Shown here piece after piece: positions 1 to 4,534 of a stretch of 7,274 bases of DNA (positions are counted from its first letter, which is position 1; each line of letters starts with the position of its first letter). The notes below the pieces were generated by a model. It saw only the letters and a list, made by a program, of their open reading frames with translations. It had not been told where the DNA came from and did not search any database. Source of the DNA: Candidatus Chloroheliales bacterium (GTDB taxonomy: Bacteria > Chloroflexota > Chloroflexia > QHBQ01); the NCBI GenBank assembly GCA_003243865.1, contig QHBQ01000508.1, forward strand, positions 1 to 7,274, in the 5' to 3' direction. Position numbers and translations under genes: made by a program.

Positions 1-1356
1 GCCGCCGACCTACGCGCCATCCCCAACCAGGGTACCCGTCAGGATTACGCCTATGCGCGTGGCTTCGAATTGCTGCGTGCCGACCCGCTCGCCTTTGTTG
101 GCAAGGGGCTGAAGGAGATGAACGACCTGTGGGCGGGCAACTTCACTGCCGAGGAGCGCTTCACCCGCGGCTACACGCATGGTCTCGTCCCTGCCAGCCA
201 TCTGCTCGCCAGCATTACGCTTGATGACACGCTCTACCTGTTGCTGGTGCCACTGGCGATTATCGGGCTGTTTGCCGCGCCCCGCCACCCCTTGCGCGGT
301 TACGTGGTCGCCTGGGCGCTGACTAACTTCGCACTGGCCTTCGCCTTCTTCGCGGTCACCCGCTTCCGCCTGGCGGTGCTGTTTTTCCTGCTGCCCTATG
401 CGGCGTGGACGCTGCTCAATCTGGGTTCGCTGTGGCGGAACTTGACCCTGCGTAGCAACGAATCAGGGCGTGATAAATCACGCCCCTATAGAGAATCAGG
501 GCGTGATAAATCATGCCCCTACAGGGTGGCCGTTGCTGCTATCCTCATCATTGGCTTCCTTGTCGCCAACCTGCCTTCCTACCCCCTGGCGGAGACGGCG
601 CAAGGCGTGACAGAGTGGGGTAAGCAGCAGCACCTTGTCGCCGGTGATGCGCTATTCGCTAGCGGCGATCTGCAAGGGGCAGCGAGAGAGTATAATCAGG
701 CCGACCAGAGTTTGGCCGAGACCCAGACCGCGCGGGCTAACCTGGATATCCACAGCGGCGATCTGGCAACCGCACAGCAGCTTGTGGTGGCGATTGACCC
801 CGCCTACTGGGGTCACTACCTCATCCTCGGCGCAATTGCCCGCGCCCAGCACGCTGATCCAACCCCCGCCTTCGGTAGCCGCGTGGTGCGCGACAACTAT
901 GCCGCCGCCAGCGAGTGGGCTTGGACGCACTTTACTTCCACGATGAGCTGCGACCTGCAAGTTGGCGACGAGGGACAGGATATGGGCGAGGTGCGCGGCT
1001 TCGGCCTTAGCGAGGTAGATAGCGGGCAACGCTACCGCTGGAGCGTGCAGCCGAGTGTGGCGCTGCGTCTCTGTCCCGCCACTTCTAGCACGACCCTCAC
1101 CCTGCGGCTGCGCGGCTATCGGCCCGCCCCGCTGCCCAGCCCGACCGTCAGCGTCAGTGTTGCGGGCGTGAACGTCGGCAACGTCAACCTCAGCGCCACC
1201 TGGCAGGACTACACCATCGCCATCCCCGCCGCTGTTGCGGCCAAGACCAGCGAGGGTACAATCATCGAGCTATCCAGTTCCACCTTCGTCCCTGGTGGCA
1301 GCGACCCCCGCCTGCTCGGCTTCATGCTCGCGGCGGCGCATTTGGGAGGTAAGTGA
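1..1356 (+). CDS. GT-C (GT39-like) membrane glycosyltransferase, C-terminal part, 5'-truncated
   Basis: The frame is open from base 1 to the TGA at 1354-1356, so the start and the catalytic N-terminus lie outside the window; 451 residues are visible. Visible residues about 78-94, 101-119 and 123-142 are hydrophobic helices, and the TRFRLAVLFFLLPYAAW stretch resembles the last-helix Arg-Arg motif of GT39/ArnT-like enzymes. These transfer sugars from polyprenyl-phosphate donors on the outer face of the membrane. Residues about 154-175 are a repeat-derived insert (ESGRDKSRPYR, then ESGRDKSCPYR). A further helix follows at about 176-196, then a TPR-like segment (about 214-265, GDALFASGDLQGAAREY) and a C-terminal beta-rich domain (about 315-450) ending in a DPRLLGFML motif. 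The substrate cannot be told. It overlaps the next gene by 4 nt, so the two are probably cotranscribed. The family call is by motif style only; the acidic catalytic residues are not visible. Confidence 0.8.
   Translation, partial: AADLRAIPNQGTRQDYAYARGFELLRADPLAFVGKGLKEMNDLWAGNFTAEERFTRGYTHGLVPASHLLASITLDDTLYLLLVPLAIIGLFAAPRHPLRGYVVAWALTNFALAFAFFAVTRFRLAVLFFLLPYAAWTLLNLGSLWRNLTLRSNESGRDKSRPYRESGRDKSCPYRVAVAAILIIGFLVANLPSYPLAETAQGVTEWGKQQHLVAGDALFASGDLQGAAREYNQADQSLAETQTARANLDIHSGDLATAQQLVVAIDPAYWGHYLILGAIARAQHADPTPAFGSRVVRDNYAAASEWAWTHFTSTMSCDLQVGDEGQDMGEVRGFGLSEVDSGQRYRWSVQPSVALRLCPATSSTTLTLRLRGYRPAPLPSPTVSVSVAGVNVGNVNLSATWQDYTIAIPAAVAAKTSEGTIIELSSSTFVPGGSDPRLLGFMLAAAHLGGK
460..524 (+). repeat. 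two tandem palindromic repeats inserted in-frame in the upstream glycosyltransferase gene
   Basis: The first copy is a 20-nt palindrome at 466-485 (GGGCGTGATAAATCACGCCC: 9-bp arms, AA loop) followed by CTATAG. The second, at 499-518, differs by one base in its right arm (ATCATGCCC) and is followed by CTACAG. The two start 33 bp apart (11 codons), so the reading frame is kept and they encode ESGRDKSRPYR and ESGRDKSCPYR. The insert lies between two hydrophobic segments, in what looks like a loop. Confidence 0.9.
1345..1350 (+). promoter_or_regulatory. Shine-Dalgarno GGAGGT for the downstream GT-C gene, close to a GTG start
   Basis: GGAGGT lies inside the last codons of the upstream gene and only 2 nt before the GTG at 1353. 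It makes the GTG start plausible and suggests translational coupling with the upstream gene. The spacing is shorter than usual (5-9 nt), so this start is likely but not certain. Confidence 0.6.
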
Positions 1357-3137
1357 ACAGCAGCAGACAACGAGTTGACATATCGCGGGTCGCATCAATC
1401 GCCGCGCTGGCAATTGCCCTGCTCATCGTTGCGCTGCTGCTGTGGCGTACCTGGCAGTCGGCGCAGTTCAGCGCGGGCATCTTCGGCTATCCCTTCCAGG
1501 TGGACGAGAGTGAGGGCATGATCGCCGCTGAGACCCTGCTGCTAGACCAGGGTCAGAATATCTACAACTTCCCCGGTCCGCAGCAGTTCGTCGCCGCACC
1601 TTATCCGCCACTCTACTATCTGCTCAACCTGCCGCTCATCCACTTCACCGGCTACAGCCTGAAGGTAGGGCGAACGCTCACCATCCTCTCCACCCTTGCC
1701 GCCGCTGCACTCCTCTTCGCCCTGGTCAAGCTTGCCACCCGCCGCCGCCTGGCTGCCATCATCGCCGCCCTCGCCTTCCTTGCCAGCTCGCTGACCGCCT
1801 TCTGGGGTGCAATCGTCAAGCCCGATCTGCCCGCAATGGCCTTTGCCCTGCTCGGTCTCTATCTAGTCGCGTTGAGTATCGTAGGGCAGCAGGGCGGGCC
1901 ACCGCCTGCCCCTACGAATGCAGGTTCGGTTCCTGTGCAACATCGTGACCCCAATTCACAATTTACAATTCATAATTCAACATTCGCCGCGCTAGCGGTG
2001 GCTGCCTTCGCCCTGGCGATGCTTACCAAGCAGACCAGCGTGGCGGCGGCGGGGGCGGGGTTCGTCGTGCTGCTGTTCAGCGACTGGCGGCGAGGGTTGA
2101 AGGCAATCGGTCTCTACGTTGCGATCGTCGGCGGCGTGTCGCTGCTGCTCGACGGGCAGACGGCGGGGGGATACTTCTGGCACATCGTTACCGTCCATAC
2201 CTTGCCTTGGAACTTCGACCGCCTGGTTAGCTACGTGCAAACTATCTGGTCGGTCAACTGGCCGCTCATCCTCATGGGTGCGCTCGGTCTAATAGTAGCT
2301 ATAGCTTCGGCGATACGGGGAACCAGTCAGCGGATTAGGTTCAACGGAGAAACCGGGAAAACGGATGTAGGGGCGCAATTCATTGCGCCCGTGCCGCCAA
2401 TCCCTAACCAGGGCGTGATTTATCACGCCCCTACAGAACCCAACCAGGGCGTGATAAATCACGCCCCTACAAACATCCAGAACTCAAAACTCGCCTTCAT
2501 GCTGCTCCTCTACGCGCTGGCGGCAGTGGTGCAGGCCAGCGGAGTCGGCACGCTGGGTGGAGTGCATAACCACTTCCTCGACGCTTTGTCGGCGCTCTGC
2601 ATCGGCTTCGGGCTGCTGCTGGGTTGGCTGCTCGACCGCGCCAACGATGTAGGCAGCGCATTGCCGCTGCGCGTTGCCGGGCTGATCGGCCTATGCGTGG
2701 CTGCGGTGCTCGTCTGGCTGCTGATCGGCGCGGAGTACGACCCCCACGACCTGAACGCCTATCAGTTTCGCTTGCCCAGCGCGGCCCAGCTTGAGGGGAT
2801 GAGCAACATCGCTCAGTTCGCCACCAACAATGGGGGGCCGCTCTACTCCGACAACGTCAGCATCGTGCTGTCGGCGCACCAGCGCCTGCGCAGTACCGAC
2901 CCTTACACCCAGACCCATGCCAGCAGCCCTGCCATCCACCCCAACCCCGCCGACCGCTGGGACGAGCGCCAGCTAGTCGCCGATATTCGCGCGGGCAAGT
3001 TTGCCCTGATCATCCTCGCCCCCAGCGATCCCTGTAAGGGGGGTGGCGGCGAAGTCTCCCCCGCAATCGCGGCGGCGGTATGCGATAGTTATAAGTTGAT
3101 CCAGCGCAATGTGGAGTACATTTATCAGCCGAGGTAA
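1353..3137 (+). CDS. GT-C-like polytopic membrane glycosyltransferase (family 39-like)
   Basis: 594 residues, GTG start, TAA stop at 3135-3137. The N-terminal helix (about 16-32) is followed by a loop with the acidic motif VDESEG (D51, E52, E54), which fits the catalytic acidic pair of GT-C enzymes, then the PYPPLYYLL motif (83-91). Helices continue with KPDLPA (156-161) and LTKQTS (224-229), motifs I associate with bacterial GT39-like membrane transferases. Residues about 465-594 form a soluble end (GGPLYSDNVSIVLSAHQ). Two stretches are repeat-derived inserts, about 177-211 and about 323-379, both in-frame and next to membrane segments. The gene overlaps its upstream GT-C neighbour by 4 nt, so both probably act in one cell-envelope glycan pathway. 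Donor and acceptor are unknown. The alternative is a non-catalytic PMT-like membrane protein. Confidence 0.8.
   Translation: MNSSRQRVDISRVASIAALAIALLIVALLLWRTWQSAQFSAGIFGYPFQVDESEGMIAAETLLLDQGQNIYNFPGPQQFVAAPYPPLYYLLNLPLIHFTGYSLKVGRTLTILSTLAAAALLFALVKLATRRRLAAIIAALAFLASSLTAFWGAIVKPDLPAMAFALLGLYLVALSIVGQQGGPPPAPTNAGSVPVQHRDPNSQFTIHNSTFAALAVAAFALAMLTKQTSVAAAGAGFVVLLFSDWRRGLKAIGLYVAIVGGVSLLLDGQTAGGYFWHIVTVHTLPWNFDRLVSYVQTIWSVNWPLILMGALGLIVAIASAIRGTSQRIRFNGETGKTDVGAQFIAPVPPIPNQGVIYHAPTEPNQGVINHAPTNIQNSKLAFMLLLYALAAVVQASGVGTLGGVHNHFLDALSALCIGFGLLLGWLLDRANDVGSALPLRVAGLIGLCVAAVLVWLLIGAEYDPHDLNAYQFRLPSAAQLEGMSNIAQFATNNGGPLYSDNVSIVLSAHQRLRSTDPYTQTHASSPAIHPNPADRWDERQLVADIRAGKFALIILAPSDPCKGGGGEVSPAIAAAVCDSYKLIQRNVEYIYQPR
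1881..1985 (+). repeat. composite repeat insert: imperfect GC-rich palindrome plus A/T-rich tail, inside the second GT-C gene
   Basis: The segment is 105 bp (35 codons) and keeps the reading frame. It starts GTAGGG and contains an imperfect palindrome, GGGCGGGC (1892-1899) with GCCTGCCC (1904-1911), one mismatch and a 4-nt loop, followed by CTAC. From 1953 to 1985 there is an A/T-rich, repetitive tail of AATTCACA, ATTTACAATT and CATAATTCAA units, encoding QFTIHNSTF. Base composition here clearly differs from the flanking high-GC helices (LVALSIV before, FAALAVAAFALAMLTKQ after). The exact borders are inferred. Confidence 0.8.
2367..2493 (+). repeat. cluster of three palindromes with tail, in-frame in the second GT-C gene
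   Basis: Three perfect 20-nt palindromes with 9-bp arms and 2-nt loops: 2371-2390 (GGGCGCAATTCATTGCGCCC, preceded by GTAG, so opposite orientation), 2411-2430 (GGGCGTGATTTATCACGCCC, followed by CTACAG) and 2447-2466 (AA loop, followed by CTAC). The last two start 36 bp apart (12 codons) and give NQGVIYHAPTEP then NQGVINHAPTNI. A short A/C-rich tail (aactcaaaactc) follows to about 2493. The inserted part of the protein probably begins earlier, near 2319. Confidence 0.9.
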
Positions 3138-3695
3138 TCACTGTGCATGGCGGAGAAGAAATGGGAAGCTAATCCAAAGAATTGTCAGCACGATTATGCT
3201 GGTAAGGTCAATCCAAATGATAAAGACCGGGCGGCGGCTATCCTGGCGGCTTATTGTGGTCCAGAAGGCGATAAATAGCGATACCCCTGAGAGCAACGCA
3301 GCCAACCCCACAGGGCCTTCAAGCTGATCATATCTGCGGATAACGGTGTTTAGCCCAGCAATACATATGCCCACTGCAATAAACGTGCAAACAAGCCCGA
3401 TTACCGCCCAGATCATCGTATCTTCCCATGCCTTGTGCAGCTTGCCCTCGGTTTTAGGCATCTGCGCTTCCTCGGTTTGCAGCAACATACTGGCAGTATC
3501 CTGTGGCTGGATGTTGGTATTCGCAGCATGCTGATAGACAAAGTTGGGGGTTAGACGATGTTGCTCTCTTAGCGCATAATCAGCCGCGCAGATAGGTCTC
3601 CAATCCACTGTTCGGGTGCAAGCGGCACAGATCGGCGTACCGCAATCAGCGCAGGTGGCGGTGGCAGGGACGCTTGGATGGTTGTAGCAGTTCAT
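3138..3695 (-). CDS. B-box-type zinc-finger membrane protein, shorter tandem paralogue
   Basis: 185 residues from the ATG at 3695. An upstream in-frame ATG at 3710 would add five residues (MRNLD) and overlap the upstream stop as TAATG. I prefer 3695 because GAGGAA sits 7 nt upstream and because the paralogue begins with the same MNCYNHP. Residues 1-40 form a B-box-like zinc finger with ligand candidates C3, H6, C15, C18, C23, C26, C36 and D39. A conserved linker follows (LTPNFVYQHAA, then QPQDTA and LLQTEEA), then three hydrophobic helices at about 93-114, 128-148 and 157-180. It probably sits in the membrane with the zinc finger in the cytoplasm. Function is unknown: such fingers commonly bind zinc and mediate protein contacts. 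It looks cotranscribed with the upstream paralogue. Its stop codon directly abuts the stop of the convergent GT-C gene. Confidence 0.85.
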   Translation of the reverse strand: MNCYNHPSVPATATCADCGTPICAACTRTVDWRPICAADYALREQHRLTPNFVYQHAANTNIQPQDTASMLLQTEEAQMPKTEGKLHKAWEDTMIWAVIGLVCTFIAVGICIAGLNTVIRRYDQLEGPVGLAALLSGVSLFIAFWTTISRQDSRRPVFIIWIDLTSIIVLTILWISFPFLLRHAQ

Positions 3696-3702
3696 ATCTA
3701 AG

Positions 3703-3708
3703 TTCCTC
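3703..3708 (-). promoter_or_regulatory. Shine-Dalgarno GAGGAA that decides the start at 3695
   Basis: Read on the minus strand, GAGGAA ends 7 nt before the ATG at 3695. No comparable site precedes the alternative ATG at 3710. The site overlaps the upstream alternative start codon and follows the stop of the upstream paralogue, so the two genes are likely to be translationally coupled. Confidence 0.65.
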
Positions 3709-3709
3709 A

Positions 3710-4438
3710 TTATTTGTACAGATCAGGATAGCGTAGATGCTGTAGATAATCAAGGTACTGATCCTTCTCATGAATGAGGAAGGGAGTGCTAATCCATAGG
3801 ATAGCCAACACGATTATGCTGGTCAGGCCAATCCAGATGATGTAGCGGGGACGTGAACTATCCTGGCGGCTGAGTATGGTCCAGAAGGTAATAACCAGAG
3901 ATACAACCGAGAGCAGCGCATTCAACCCCAGAGTACCTGTAAGGGAACCGTGCCCGCCATAAACATCCAGCCCGCTAATAAAGAGGAACACTGGGATAAG
4001 CGCACAAACCAGCCCAATTACCGACCAGATCATCGTATCTTCCCATGCCTTGTGCCTCTTGCCACTGGGCTTGGGCATCCGCGCTTCTTCAGTTTGCAGC
4101 AGTATCGCAGCAGTATCCTGCGGCTGAACTAGGTCAGCAGCGGCGTGCTGATAGACAAAGTTGGGAGTCAGCTTGTGTTCAGCAACCTGCACCAATGGAG
4201 TGTGCTCGGCTTGTTCAGCAATGCGCAAGGGCAGCATCCGTTGGGTCTTCTTTTCTGGCCGATAAGGTGGTACGGCTACGGGCAGCAGCACGTCCTCTAC
4301 CTCGTGCCCCGCCATCGTGTAATCTGCCGGGCAGAACGACCTGCCGCGGAGCATCCGAGTACAATCGGCGCAGATCGGCGCACCGCAATCAGCGCAGGTG
4401 GCGGTGGCGGGTACGTTGGGGTGGTTGTAGCAGTTCAT
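3710..4438 (-). CDS. B-box-type zinc-finger membrane protein, longer tandem paralogue
   Basis: 242 residues. The ATG at 4438 has GAGAGG (4450-4445) 6 nt upstream and a good promoter further up. The N-terminal 40 residues match the shorter downstream paralogue closely and keep the same zinc-ligand candidates (C3, H6, C15, C18, C23, C26, C36, D39). This copy has an extra segment at about residues 41-88, charged and proline-containing (PPYRPEKKTQRMLPLR), between the finger and the shared LTPNFVYQHAA linker. It also has an extra tail after the last helix (DQYLDYLQHLRYPDLYK). Hydrophobic helices lie at about 136-156, 168-190 and 199-222. The role is unknown; a membrane-bound zinc-binding scaffold or sensor is possible. 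The call rests on cysteine/histidine spacing, and no enzyme motif is visible. Confidence 0.87.
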   Translation of the reverse strand: MNCYNHPNVPATATCADCGAPICADCTRMLRGRSFCPADYTMAGHEVEDVLLPVAVPPYRPEKKTQRMLPLRIAEQAEHTPLVQVAEHKLTPNFVYQHAAADLVQPQDTAAILLQTEEARMPKPSGKRHKAWEDTMIWSVIGLVCALIPVFLFISGLDVYGGHGSLTGTLGLNALLSVVSLVITFWTILSRQDSSRPRYIIWIGLTSIIVLAILWISTPFLIHEKDQYLDYLQHLRYPDLYK

Positions 4439-4473
4439 TGGCGGCCTCTCATCTCGTCGGCTTGGTCTACTCT

Positions 4474-4501
4474 ATTATACTACGTGGGGACAGGATAACA
4501 A
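4474..4501 (-). promoter_or_regulatory. sigma-70-type promoter for the zinc-finger pair
   Basis: On the minus strand a perfect TATAAT lies at 4479-4474 and TTGTTA (4 of 6 matches to TTGACA) at 4501-4496, with a 16-nt spacer. The predicted start of transcription is near 4467, leaving a leader of about 29 nt that holds the GAGAGG ribosome site. This is the only promoter seen for the pair. Confidence 0.65.
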
Positions 4502-4509
4502 GTTGCACT

Positions 4510-4534
4510 GGGGCGGGTCATCACCTGCCCCTAC
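4510..4534. repeat. intergenic copy of the palindrome family, between divergent promoters
   Basis: GGGGCGGGT (4510-4518) pairs with ACCTGCCCC (4523-4531) with one mismatch and a CATC loop, followed by TAC. It is close to the imperfect palindrome at 1892-1911 (GGGCGGGC / GCCTGCCC plus CTAC). An A/T-rich stretch (about 4541-4566) follows it, as with the copies inside genes. No T-run follows, so it does not look like a terminator. It could be a mobile-type repeat or an operator between the two promoters. Confidence 0.75.

Follow-up and report, generated by a model that had tools for sequence, protein, structure and literature searches.

The window analysed here is a stretch of 7,274 nucleotides, positions 1 to 7,274 of contig QHBQ01000508.1 from a Candidatus Chloroheliales bacterium (Chloroflexota; GenBank assembly GCA_003243865.1), and it holds seven copies of a short palindrome. 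To judge from their sequence, these are repetitive extragenic palindromic (REP) elements of the GTAG type, which carry a GTAG tag at one end (CTAC on the opposite strand). Two copies lie in gene 1 (1..1356, plus strand), which encodes a membrane protein with no match in Pfam and has its 5' end outside the window. Four lie in gene 2 (1353..3137, plus strand), which encodes a polytopic protein of 594 amino acids (aa) with weak PMT_2/GT39 similarity (E 3e-4, below the cut-off), and one is intergenic, ahead of a GH57 gene that contains none of the seven.

Copies 1 and 2 (466..489 and 499..522, both minus strand) stand head-to-tail at 33 bp and are read by gene 1 as GRDKSRPY and GRDKSCPY; the tag of copy 1 is degenerate (CTAT as read, ATAG). 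In gene 2, copy 3 (1892..1915, minus) has a different core and a weak hairpin and is read as QGGPPPAPT, and on its 3' side a degenerate array of ATTCACA-like heptamers (1944..1985, plus) is read as NSQFTIHNSTF. Copy 4 (2367..2390, plus) is inverted, has the core GCGCAATTCATTGCGC and is read as VGAQFIAP. Copies 5 and 6 (2411..2434 and 2447..2470, both minus), head-to-tail at 36 bp, contribute QGVIYHAPT and QGVINHAPT, and 3' of copy 6 a remnant CTCAAAA heptamer (AACTCAAAACTC, 2478..2490, plus) is read as QNSKL. Together, copies 4 and 5 form a 68-bp pair with the GTAG tags outward (2367-2434), which is the layout of a REPIN. Copy 7 (4511..4534, minus) is the intergenic one and again has a different core.

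The 8-mer GTAGGGGC, which comprises the tag and the first stem bases, occurs six times exactly in the window versus 0.29 expected (mean of 200 dinucleotide shuffles of the window; maximum 2, none reaching 6). The tag itself is exact in six of the seven copies and degenerate in one. Folded as single-stranded DNA, six of the seven beat all 200 shuffles, while the fold of the copy at 1892 is unremarkable (z -1.62, 16/200 shuffles equally good). The gene 1 copies are read in phase 0 and the CTAC-oriented copies of gene 2 in phase 2, with the third frame of GTGATAAATCAC copies closed by TGA or TAA.

A sequence-only reading of the window had described one palindrome family with seven copies between 466 and 4534, none of them in GH57, and two open frames that are both in use. 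All of this stands: each copy was located, six with exact GTAGGGGC, the frames of GRDKSRPY and QGVINHAPT are those just given, and absence from a gene such as GH57 is the norm for the family. Other points needed correction. The TGA that it placed in the third CTAC-ending frame is present in GTGATAAATCAC copies but is confined to the GTGATNNATCAC subfamily; the copies at 1892 and 4511 have other cores. The copy it placed at 2371 is indeed inverted, but the CAA found where the TGA would fall is no repair of that stop; by its sequence this copy represents a separate subfamily (GCGCAATTCATTGCGC), and its core and the peptide GAQFIAP recur in a gene (L102) of a relative. The spacings of 33 and 36 bp were measured as stated, but multiples of three are not a trait of the family (28 of 86 head-to-tail spacings in that relative), and two pairs prove little.

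The same sites in relatives and the wider family

The nearest relative examined, genome G090, was found within the class to which a Ca. Chloroheliaceae genome (L004) belongs. Its contig C98 runs from the last part of gene 2 through two zinc-finger genes into the beginning of GH57, in window order, and the C98 protein shares 77% aa identity with gene 2 over residues 346-593. In the window, the genes between gene 2 and GH57 (3138-4438) encode a tandem pair of B-box-type zinc-finger membrane proteins; the DNA of these paralogues is 75-88% alike in blocks, and the pair was recognized by eye in G090 as well (L024).

In the gene 2 loop that holds copies 4 to 6 (2330-2490), the orthologue P0002 carries CTCAGCA heptamers and no REPs. 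G090 likewise has CTCAGCA heptamers and no REPs there, together with two copies of another repeat (CTCTCCCC..GGGGAAACC type, L024 120-300), so that at least three repeat families occupy this one loop across relatives; distant homologues of gene 2 have dissimilar, mostly short loops at this position. The copy 3 peptide GGPPPAPTN is present at the matching place in P0002 (69% identical), and judging from the sequences the insertion of copy 3 may predate the split between the window and P0002 or may have happened repeatedly. For gene 1, the orthologue P0021 (74%) has a single copy where the window has two (QPGRDKSHPYK), and P0022 has no copy at that position. The counterpart of copy 7 in G090 is a diverged GTAG-type palindrome (L024 2640-2665). 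The window copies are insertions, as shown by orthologues in which these points are occupied by different sequence or by a smaller number of copies.

The family is genome-wide in G090, where the pattern GTAGGGGCN{8,16}GCCC has 646 + 766 = 1412 matches when both strands are counted, so that a palindrome with a tag at each end scores twice, versus 7 + 12 = 19 for the reversed-pattern control. The pattern matches 152 of the 158 genomes of the class, in many of them at or below the control. A phylum-wide sample of 400 genomes contained the exact GTGATNNATCAC form in 5, with G416 and G353 accounting for most of the occurrences. Six IMG/VR viral contigs (L008-L013) also carry an exact GTGATNNATCAC REP. 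Finer counts come from a G090 sample of 121 contigs (1.24 Mb of ~5.2 Mb, ~80% coding), which contains 227 GTAG-tagged stem-loops, with 13-40 for seven other tag permutations; the 197 TAGG-tagged stem-loops are the GTAG element shifted by one base. Within 150 bp of each other, 86 of 92 REP neighbours in G090 are head-to-tail and 6 inverted, with spacing peaking at 65-66 bp. Pairs with GTAG outward number 3 in the sample, and an inverted 93-bp GTAG-outward unit of the window subfamily occurs once each among the loci fetched from G353 (L181/L186) and G416 (L177/L182), with a similar 45-bp spacer.

These properties can be compared with known systems. GTAG REP families, whose hosts include Chloroflexi, have a high copy number and are mostly intergenic, and copies within open reading frames (ORFs) have already been described (Di Nocera, De Gregorio and Rocco, 2013; PMC3733652). 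The elements studied here share with them the unpaired GTAG at one end, a stem of ~8-9 bp, a short loop and compensating stem changes between subfamilies. They differ in arrangement: in PMC3733652 dimers are mostly inverted and head-to-tail ones rare, although this is a typical rather than a defining trait, whereas head-to-tail neighbours prevail in G090. With REPINs (PMC3116915, 2011; PMC6006769) they have in common the GTAG-outward pairs of the window, G353 and G416, but such pairs are not the common unit in G090. According to PMC3733652, the Rickettsia palindromic elements (RPE) are likewise in-frame palindromes in ORFs of likely functional proteins. The tags of RPE-4 and RPE-6 are CGTC, and that study found no transposase linked to CGTC repeats; here the tag is GTAG and RAYT-like genes are present in the relative G090.

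Those genes resemble REP-associated tyrosine transposases (RAYTs). The RAYT model NF047646 matches two G090 genes with 70.6 and 61.3 bits, over positions 7-131 and 7-133 of 146, and these matches overturned the conclusion, drawn from a null result with PF01797, that G090 has no RAYT. Each of the two stands between REPs of its own subfamily, with 4 + 6 of the GGGCGGTGGCCC type around L194 and 5 + 3 of the GCATGGCATACGC type around L207. The RAYT-like genes L196 and L205 of G416 are also flanked by their own REP subfamily. Across six sequences, the RAYT-like proteins have invariant H82, H84, Y162, N166 and P167; they keep HxH, the NP-adjacent tyrosine and the N-terminal threonine, and NP(L/V)(R/K)xG only partly. 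A single-sequence search of solved structures placed TnpA-REP 4er8 third (E = 0.43). A small HUH/Y1 gene flanked by its own REPs is what has been reported for RAYT/TnpA-REP and REPtrons (PMC2817692, 2010; Quentin et al., 2018, PMC6006769), from which the G090 loci differ in that their flanks are multi-copy, largely head-to-tail arrays and their scores lie below the cut-off. By analogy with these known families, the RAYT-like enzymes would move the REPs.

Frame, orientation and hosts of in-gene copies

Gene calls in the G090 sample come from a hexamer model for which 450 long ORFs served as the training set. A stringent filter kept 301 REPs versus 346 looser pattern matches; among those removed are degenerate copies, for example L148 14036, an open CTAC-last copy inside a gene, and chance matches, for example L109 14932, which is not a palindrome. 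The family is mainly extragenic: 268 of the 301 are intergenic, 6 overlap a gene end, and 27 lie in genes, 15 with coding signal on one side only and 12 with coding signal on both, which makes the window, with six of its seven copies in genes, atypical. Among the looser matches 21 are immediately flanked on both sides by coding sequence on one strand, of which 19 are open (a figure that includes chance matches and leaves out copies adjoining other repeats), 2 are frame-shifted and none has an in-frame stop. All open ones but L109 14932 are CTAC-last (18/19).

The orientation of in-gene copies is strongly one-sided. All 12 two-sided copies (10 of 10 clusters) are CTAC-last, 8 of them using the frame that ends in APT or similar, as are 12 of the 15 one-sided cases, the other 3 being GTAG-first. 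Intergenic clusters between co-directional genes include 65 GTAG-first, 35 CTAC-last and 1 mixed, and the difference between in-gene and intergenic clusters is significant (Fisher p = 7e-5). A further case from the TGA subfamily, in an O-antigen-ligase-like protein (L185), is also CTAC-last and open; in this subfamily three of the six frames are closed. In the GTAG direction one frame always contains TAG, but in the subfamilies common in G090 each of the remaining five is open in 95-99% of copies, which leaves little room for a test of stop depletion in that genome ((5/6)^12 ~0.11). Stops alone would predict an orientation ratio of 3:2 for CTAC, while 10:0 is observed by cluster (p = 0.006); since all 12 copies are CTAC-last despite two open GTAG-direction frames, stops alone are insufficient as an explanation. 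Replication-strand bias was considered as a cause of orientation in G090 and rejected: REP clusters on the same contig agree in 42-47% of pairs at distances of 150 bp-20 kb, and REP orientation has no link to GC skew (p = 0.26), though genes show one.

The host genes are also of a particular kind. Hydropathy predicts five or more transmembrane segments for 7 of the 10 genes that bear REPs, versus 94 of 735 other genes of at least 450 bp (p = 6e-5). The AlphaFold model of gene 2 (13 sequences) has a mean predicted local distance difference test score (pLDDT) of 68.8. Copies 4 to 6 correspond to residues 339-373, within a predicted coil (332-373) where pLDDT is <50 for nearly all residues, and copy 3 falls within a predicted inter-helix coil (178-199). 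In gene 1, the two copies correspond to residues 156-163 and 167-174, around a predicted coil at 157-171. Loops between helices are the likely refuge for in-gene REPs. One G090 ORF (L102 8698-10585) contains a LivM-type branched-chain amino acid permease and a LivG-type ATPase with a linker of REP and heptamers.

REPs and heptamer arrays

For REPs and heptamer arrays (CTCAAAA or CTCAGCA) less than 200 bp apart in the G090 sample, the array lies 3' of a CTAC-oriented REP in 11 of 12 pairs between genes and in 6 of 7 inside genes; 40 of 59 heptamer arrays have no REP inside that distance. Over the whole of G090, the four possible arrangements of a REP and a heptamer within 30 bp occur at 44, 4, 6 and 0 places, so that 44 of 54 follow the fixed order; at 3 of the 6 the REP has an array on both sides and is therefore also counted among the 44. 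The polarity is local, with ratios of 15:1 up to 200 bp, 8:7 from there to 1 kb, 12:24 (the reverse) between 1 and 3 kb, and 26:32 and 32:32 beyond 3 kb. The window follows this order at both places where it has heptamers next to REPs, 1892-1985 and 2447-2490. In 22 other REP-rich genomes, which were picked, the pair was found in none, heptamers as such not having been searched for in them, and one of them, G073, gave a single match of the heptamer-then-GTAG arrangement.

The heptamer unit encodes the same cyclic heptapeptide whichever frame of one strand is read, and every frame of the other strand contains a stop. Heptamer arrays were seen inside ORFs in the window (1944-1985) and at L033, L025, L082 and L102. 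All 23 in-gene arrays lie on the open strand, a result that is forced, as the opposite strand stops in every frame and allows no ORF. A reversed-sequence control is uninformative for CTCAAAA, since reversing this unit yields a rotation of the unit itself. Tandem 7-bp units are also a feature of bacterial heptameric simple repeats; those in the abstract of PMC4692102 are G-rich, in contrast to the CTCAAAA, CTCAGCA and ATTCACA types found here 3' of REPs.

A single fixed mobile unit made of REP and heptamers was ruled out, since the spacers vary in sequence and length. Elements of 61 bp with inverted ends GTGTCTGAAAA/TTTTCAGACAC and a GTAG-REP inside were found three times in the G090 sample, always with the REP (L033 8187, which holds an in-gene copy, L039 5085 and L043 5388). 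By eye, the right end of this element, variably decayed, can be recognized in 9 of the 44 REP-heptamer places. The available part of PMC3733652 showed neither an in-gene orientation rule nor a heptamer partner of GTAG REPs, and neither in-gene REP orientation nor REP-heptamer order is named in the titles and abstract beginnings of the literature searched; a literature text search for the peptide GRDKSRPY gave no match. To our knowledge, two traits are new relative to known GTAG REPs and stand unexplained: the predominance of head-to-tail neighbours and the constant order of REP and heptamers.

Origin of the in-gene copies

These palindromes are GTAG REPs that, in the probable account, are moved by RAYTs, duplicated locally and purged from genes, with the survivors in loops acting as filler. 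Such REPs are small non-autonomous hairpins, and the enzymes most likely to mobilize them are RAYTs, which are HUH/Y1 single-strand transposases. A RAYT would insert the REP, and local events would then generate head-to-tail copies, as may be the case in gene 1 with its two copies versus one in the orthologue. Purifying selection would clear most in-gene copies, a step supported by the finding that only 12 of 301 REPs lie in genes with coding sequence on both sides though ~80% of the sample is coding. The survivors would be copies in open frames, nearly all of them CTAC-oriented, that fall in non-conserved loops, chiefly of membrane proteins, and the REP-encoded peptides would be tolerated loop filler without function.

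Several observations weigh against this explanation. Copy number and RAYTs were measured in the proxy G090 rather than in the window's own genome, and both RAYT matches there fall under the curated NCBIfam cut-off of 80, which was exceeded in 3 of 16 genomes searched, G090 not among them. Among RAYT-model loci, 11 of 30 are without any GTAG stem-loop even in a looser scan. A PF01797 profile search of G090 gave no match; this profile matches 84 of the 158 genomes of the class, and a GTAG stem-loop beside the transposase is absent at 30 of the 30 best-scoring PF01797 loci fetched, those at L069 and L072 lying at least 0.6 kb away. Given these loci and the RAYT-model loci without stem-loops, most Y1 genes of the class are not established REP partners, and we take the PF01797 loci to be mostly of the IS200 type. 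The common model of REP movement expects inverted pairs, which are the small minority in G090. The in-gene numbers are small (10 clusters) and depend on gene calls from a home-made hexamer model. Finally, the gene 1 structure model is poor (predicted template modelling score 0.36), and copy 2 extends into a predicted helix.

A possible, though less probable, account of the orientation rule is that it is a by-product of REPs and heptamers being laid down together in a fixed order, a REP ending in CTAC and then n units of CTCAAAA or CTCAGCA, with the heptamer stops permitting only one orientation in genes. The polarity outside genes is what such a process would leave, as are its local character, the computed frame property and the agreement of both window places, and the frame property may indeed account for part of the in-gene rule. 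Yet the varying spacers are not those of one mobile unit, and five of the ten in-gene clusters (L100, L109, L140, L149, L091) are free of heptamers within 200 bp and still CTAC-last, for which the chance is 0.6^5, or ~0.08. The nine places with a 61-bp element end may also be copies of one arrangement, and the pair is missing from the 22 picked genomes, whose heptamer content was not searched. It is improbable that the REP-coded peptides are useful linkers maintained by positive selection. The occurrence of GGPPPAPTN in P0002 and GRDKSHPY in P0021, sites common to proteins only 69 and 74% identical, and the joining of permease and ATPase in L102 could be taken in that sense, but the loop of copies 4 to 6 has different repeats in each relative and is modelled with a confidence below 50, and the inserts are missing from most homologues. 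More improbable still is a mainly regulatory role of the hairpins as attenuators or mRNA stabilizers: it would suit the large intergenic majority, the stability of the single-stranded hairpins and the lean towards GTAG between co-directional genes (65 vs 35), but not copies that lie mid-gene in open genes and in differing frames. Chance or an assembly artefact has practically no standing, for beyond the window being a single contig nothing speaks for it, no shuffle reaches the GTAGGGGC count and the family is present in other genomes.

The observation made from the sequence alone was thus right and its interpretation half right. Insertion of a dispersed family was borne out by the differing orthologue sites, the G090 count and the RAYT-like genes there, which are the sub-cut-off pair, flanked by their own REPs, that the proposed search for a transposase turned up. 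The family is not restricted to this locus, and none of the copies found occupies a frame with a stop inside a gene. Selection for open frames agrees with the absence of in-frame stops among the 21 looser in-gene matches, but stops are not the full cause, the CTAC-last orientation (12/12) being the stronger signal. A GTAG REP family with RAYT-like genes in the nearest relative is of a known kind, and in-gene survivors have been reported for other bacteria.

More speculatively, and rather unlikely at present, one polar process could lay both REPs and heptamers, with the GTAG foot setting the heptamer side, and the stop-free mosaics would be ready-made linkers. If so, the mosaics would have almost all frames of one strand free of stops, would lengthen membrane loops and could even fuse neighbouring genes, such as the permease and ATPase of L102. 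Whatever their origin, the window offers a clear case of REPs surviving in genes, with orthologues available at the same points, and loop position, open frame and orientation appear to act as filters on in-gene copies. Head-to-tail arrays and a fixed REP-heptamer order are not predicted by the usual inverted-pair picture of REP movement. Ultimately, REP-coded peptides such as GEQRFAPT and GRDKSRPY in predicted proteins are better taken as repeat DNA than as conserved domains.
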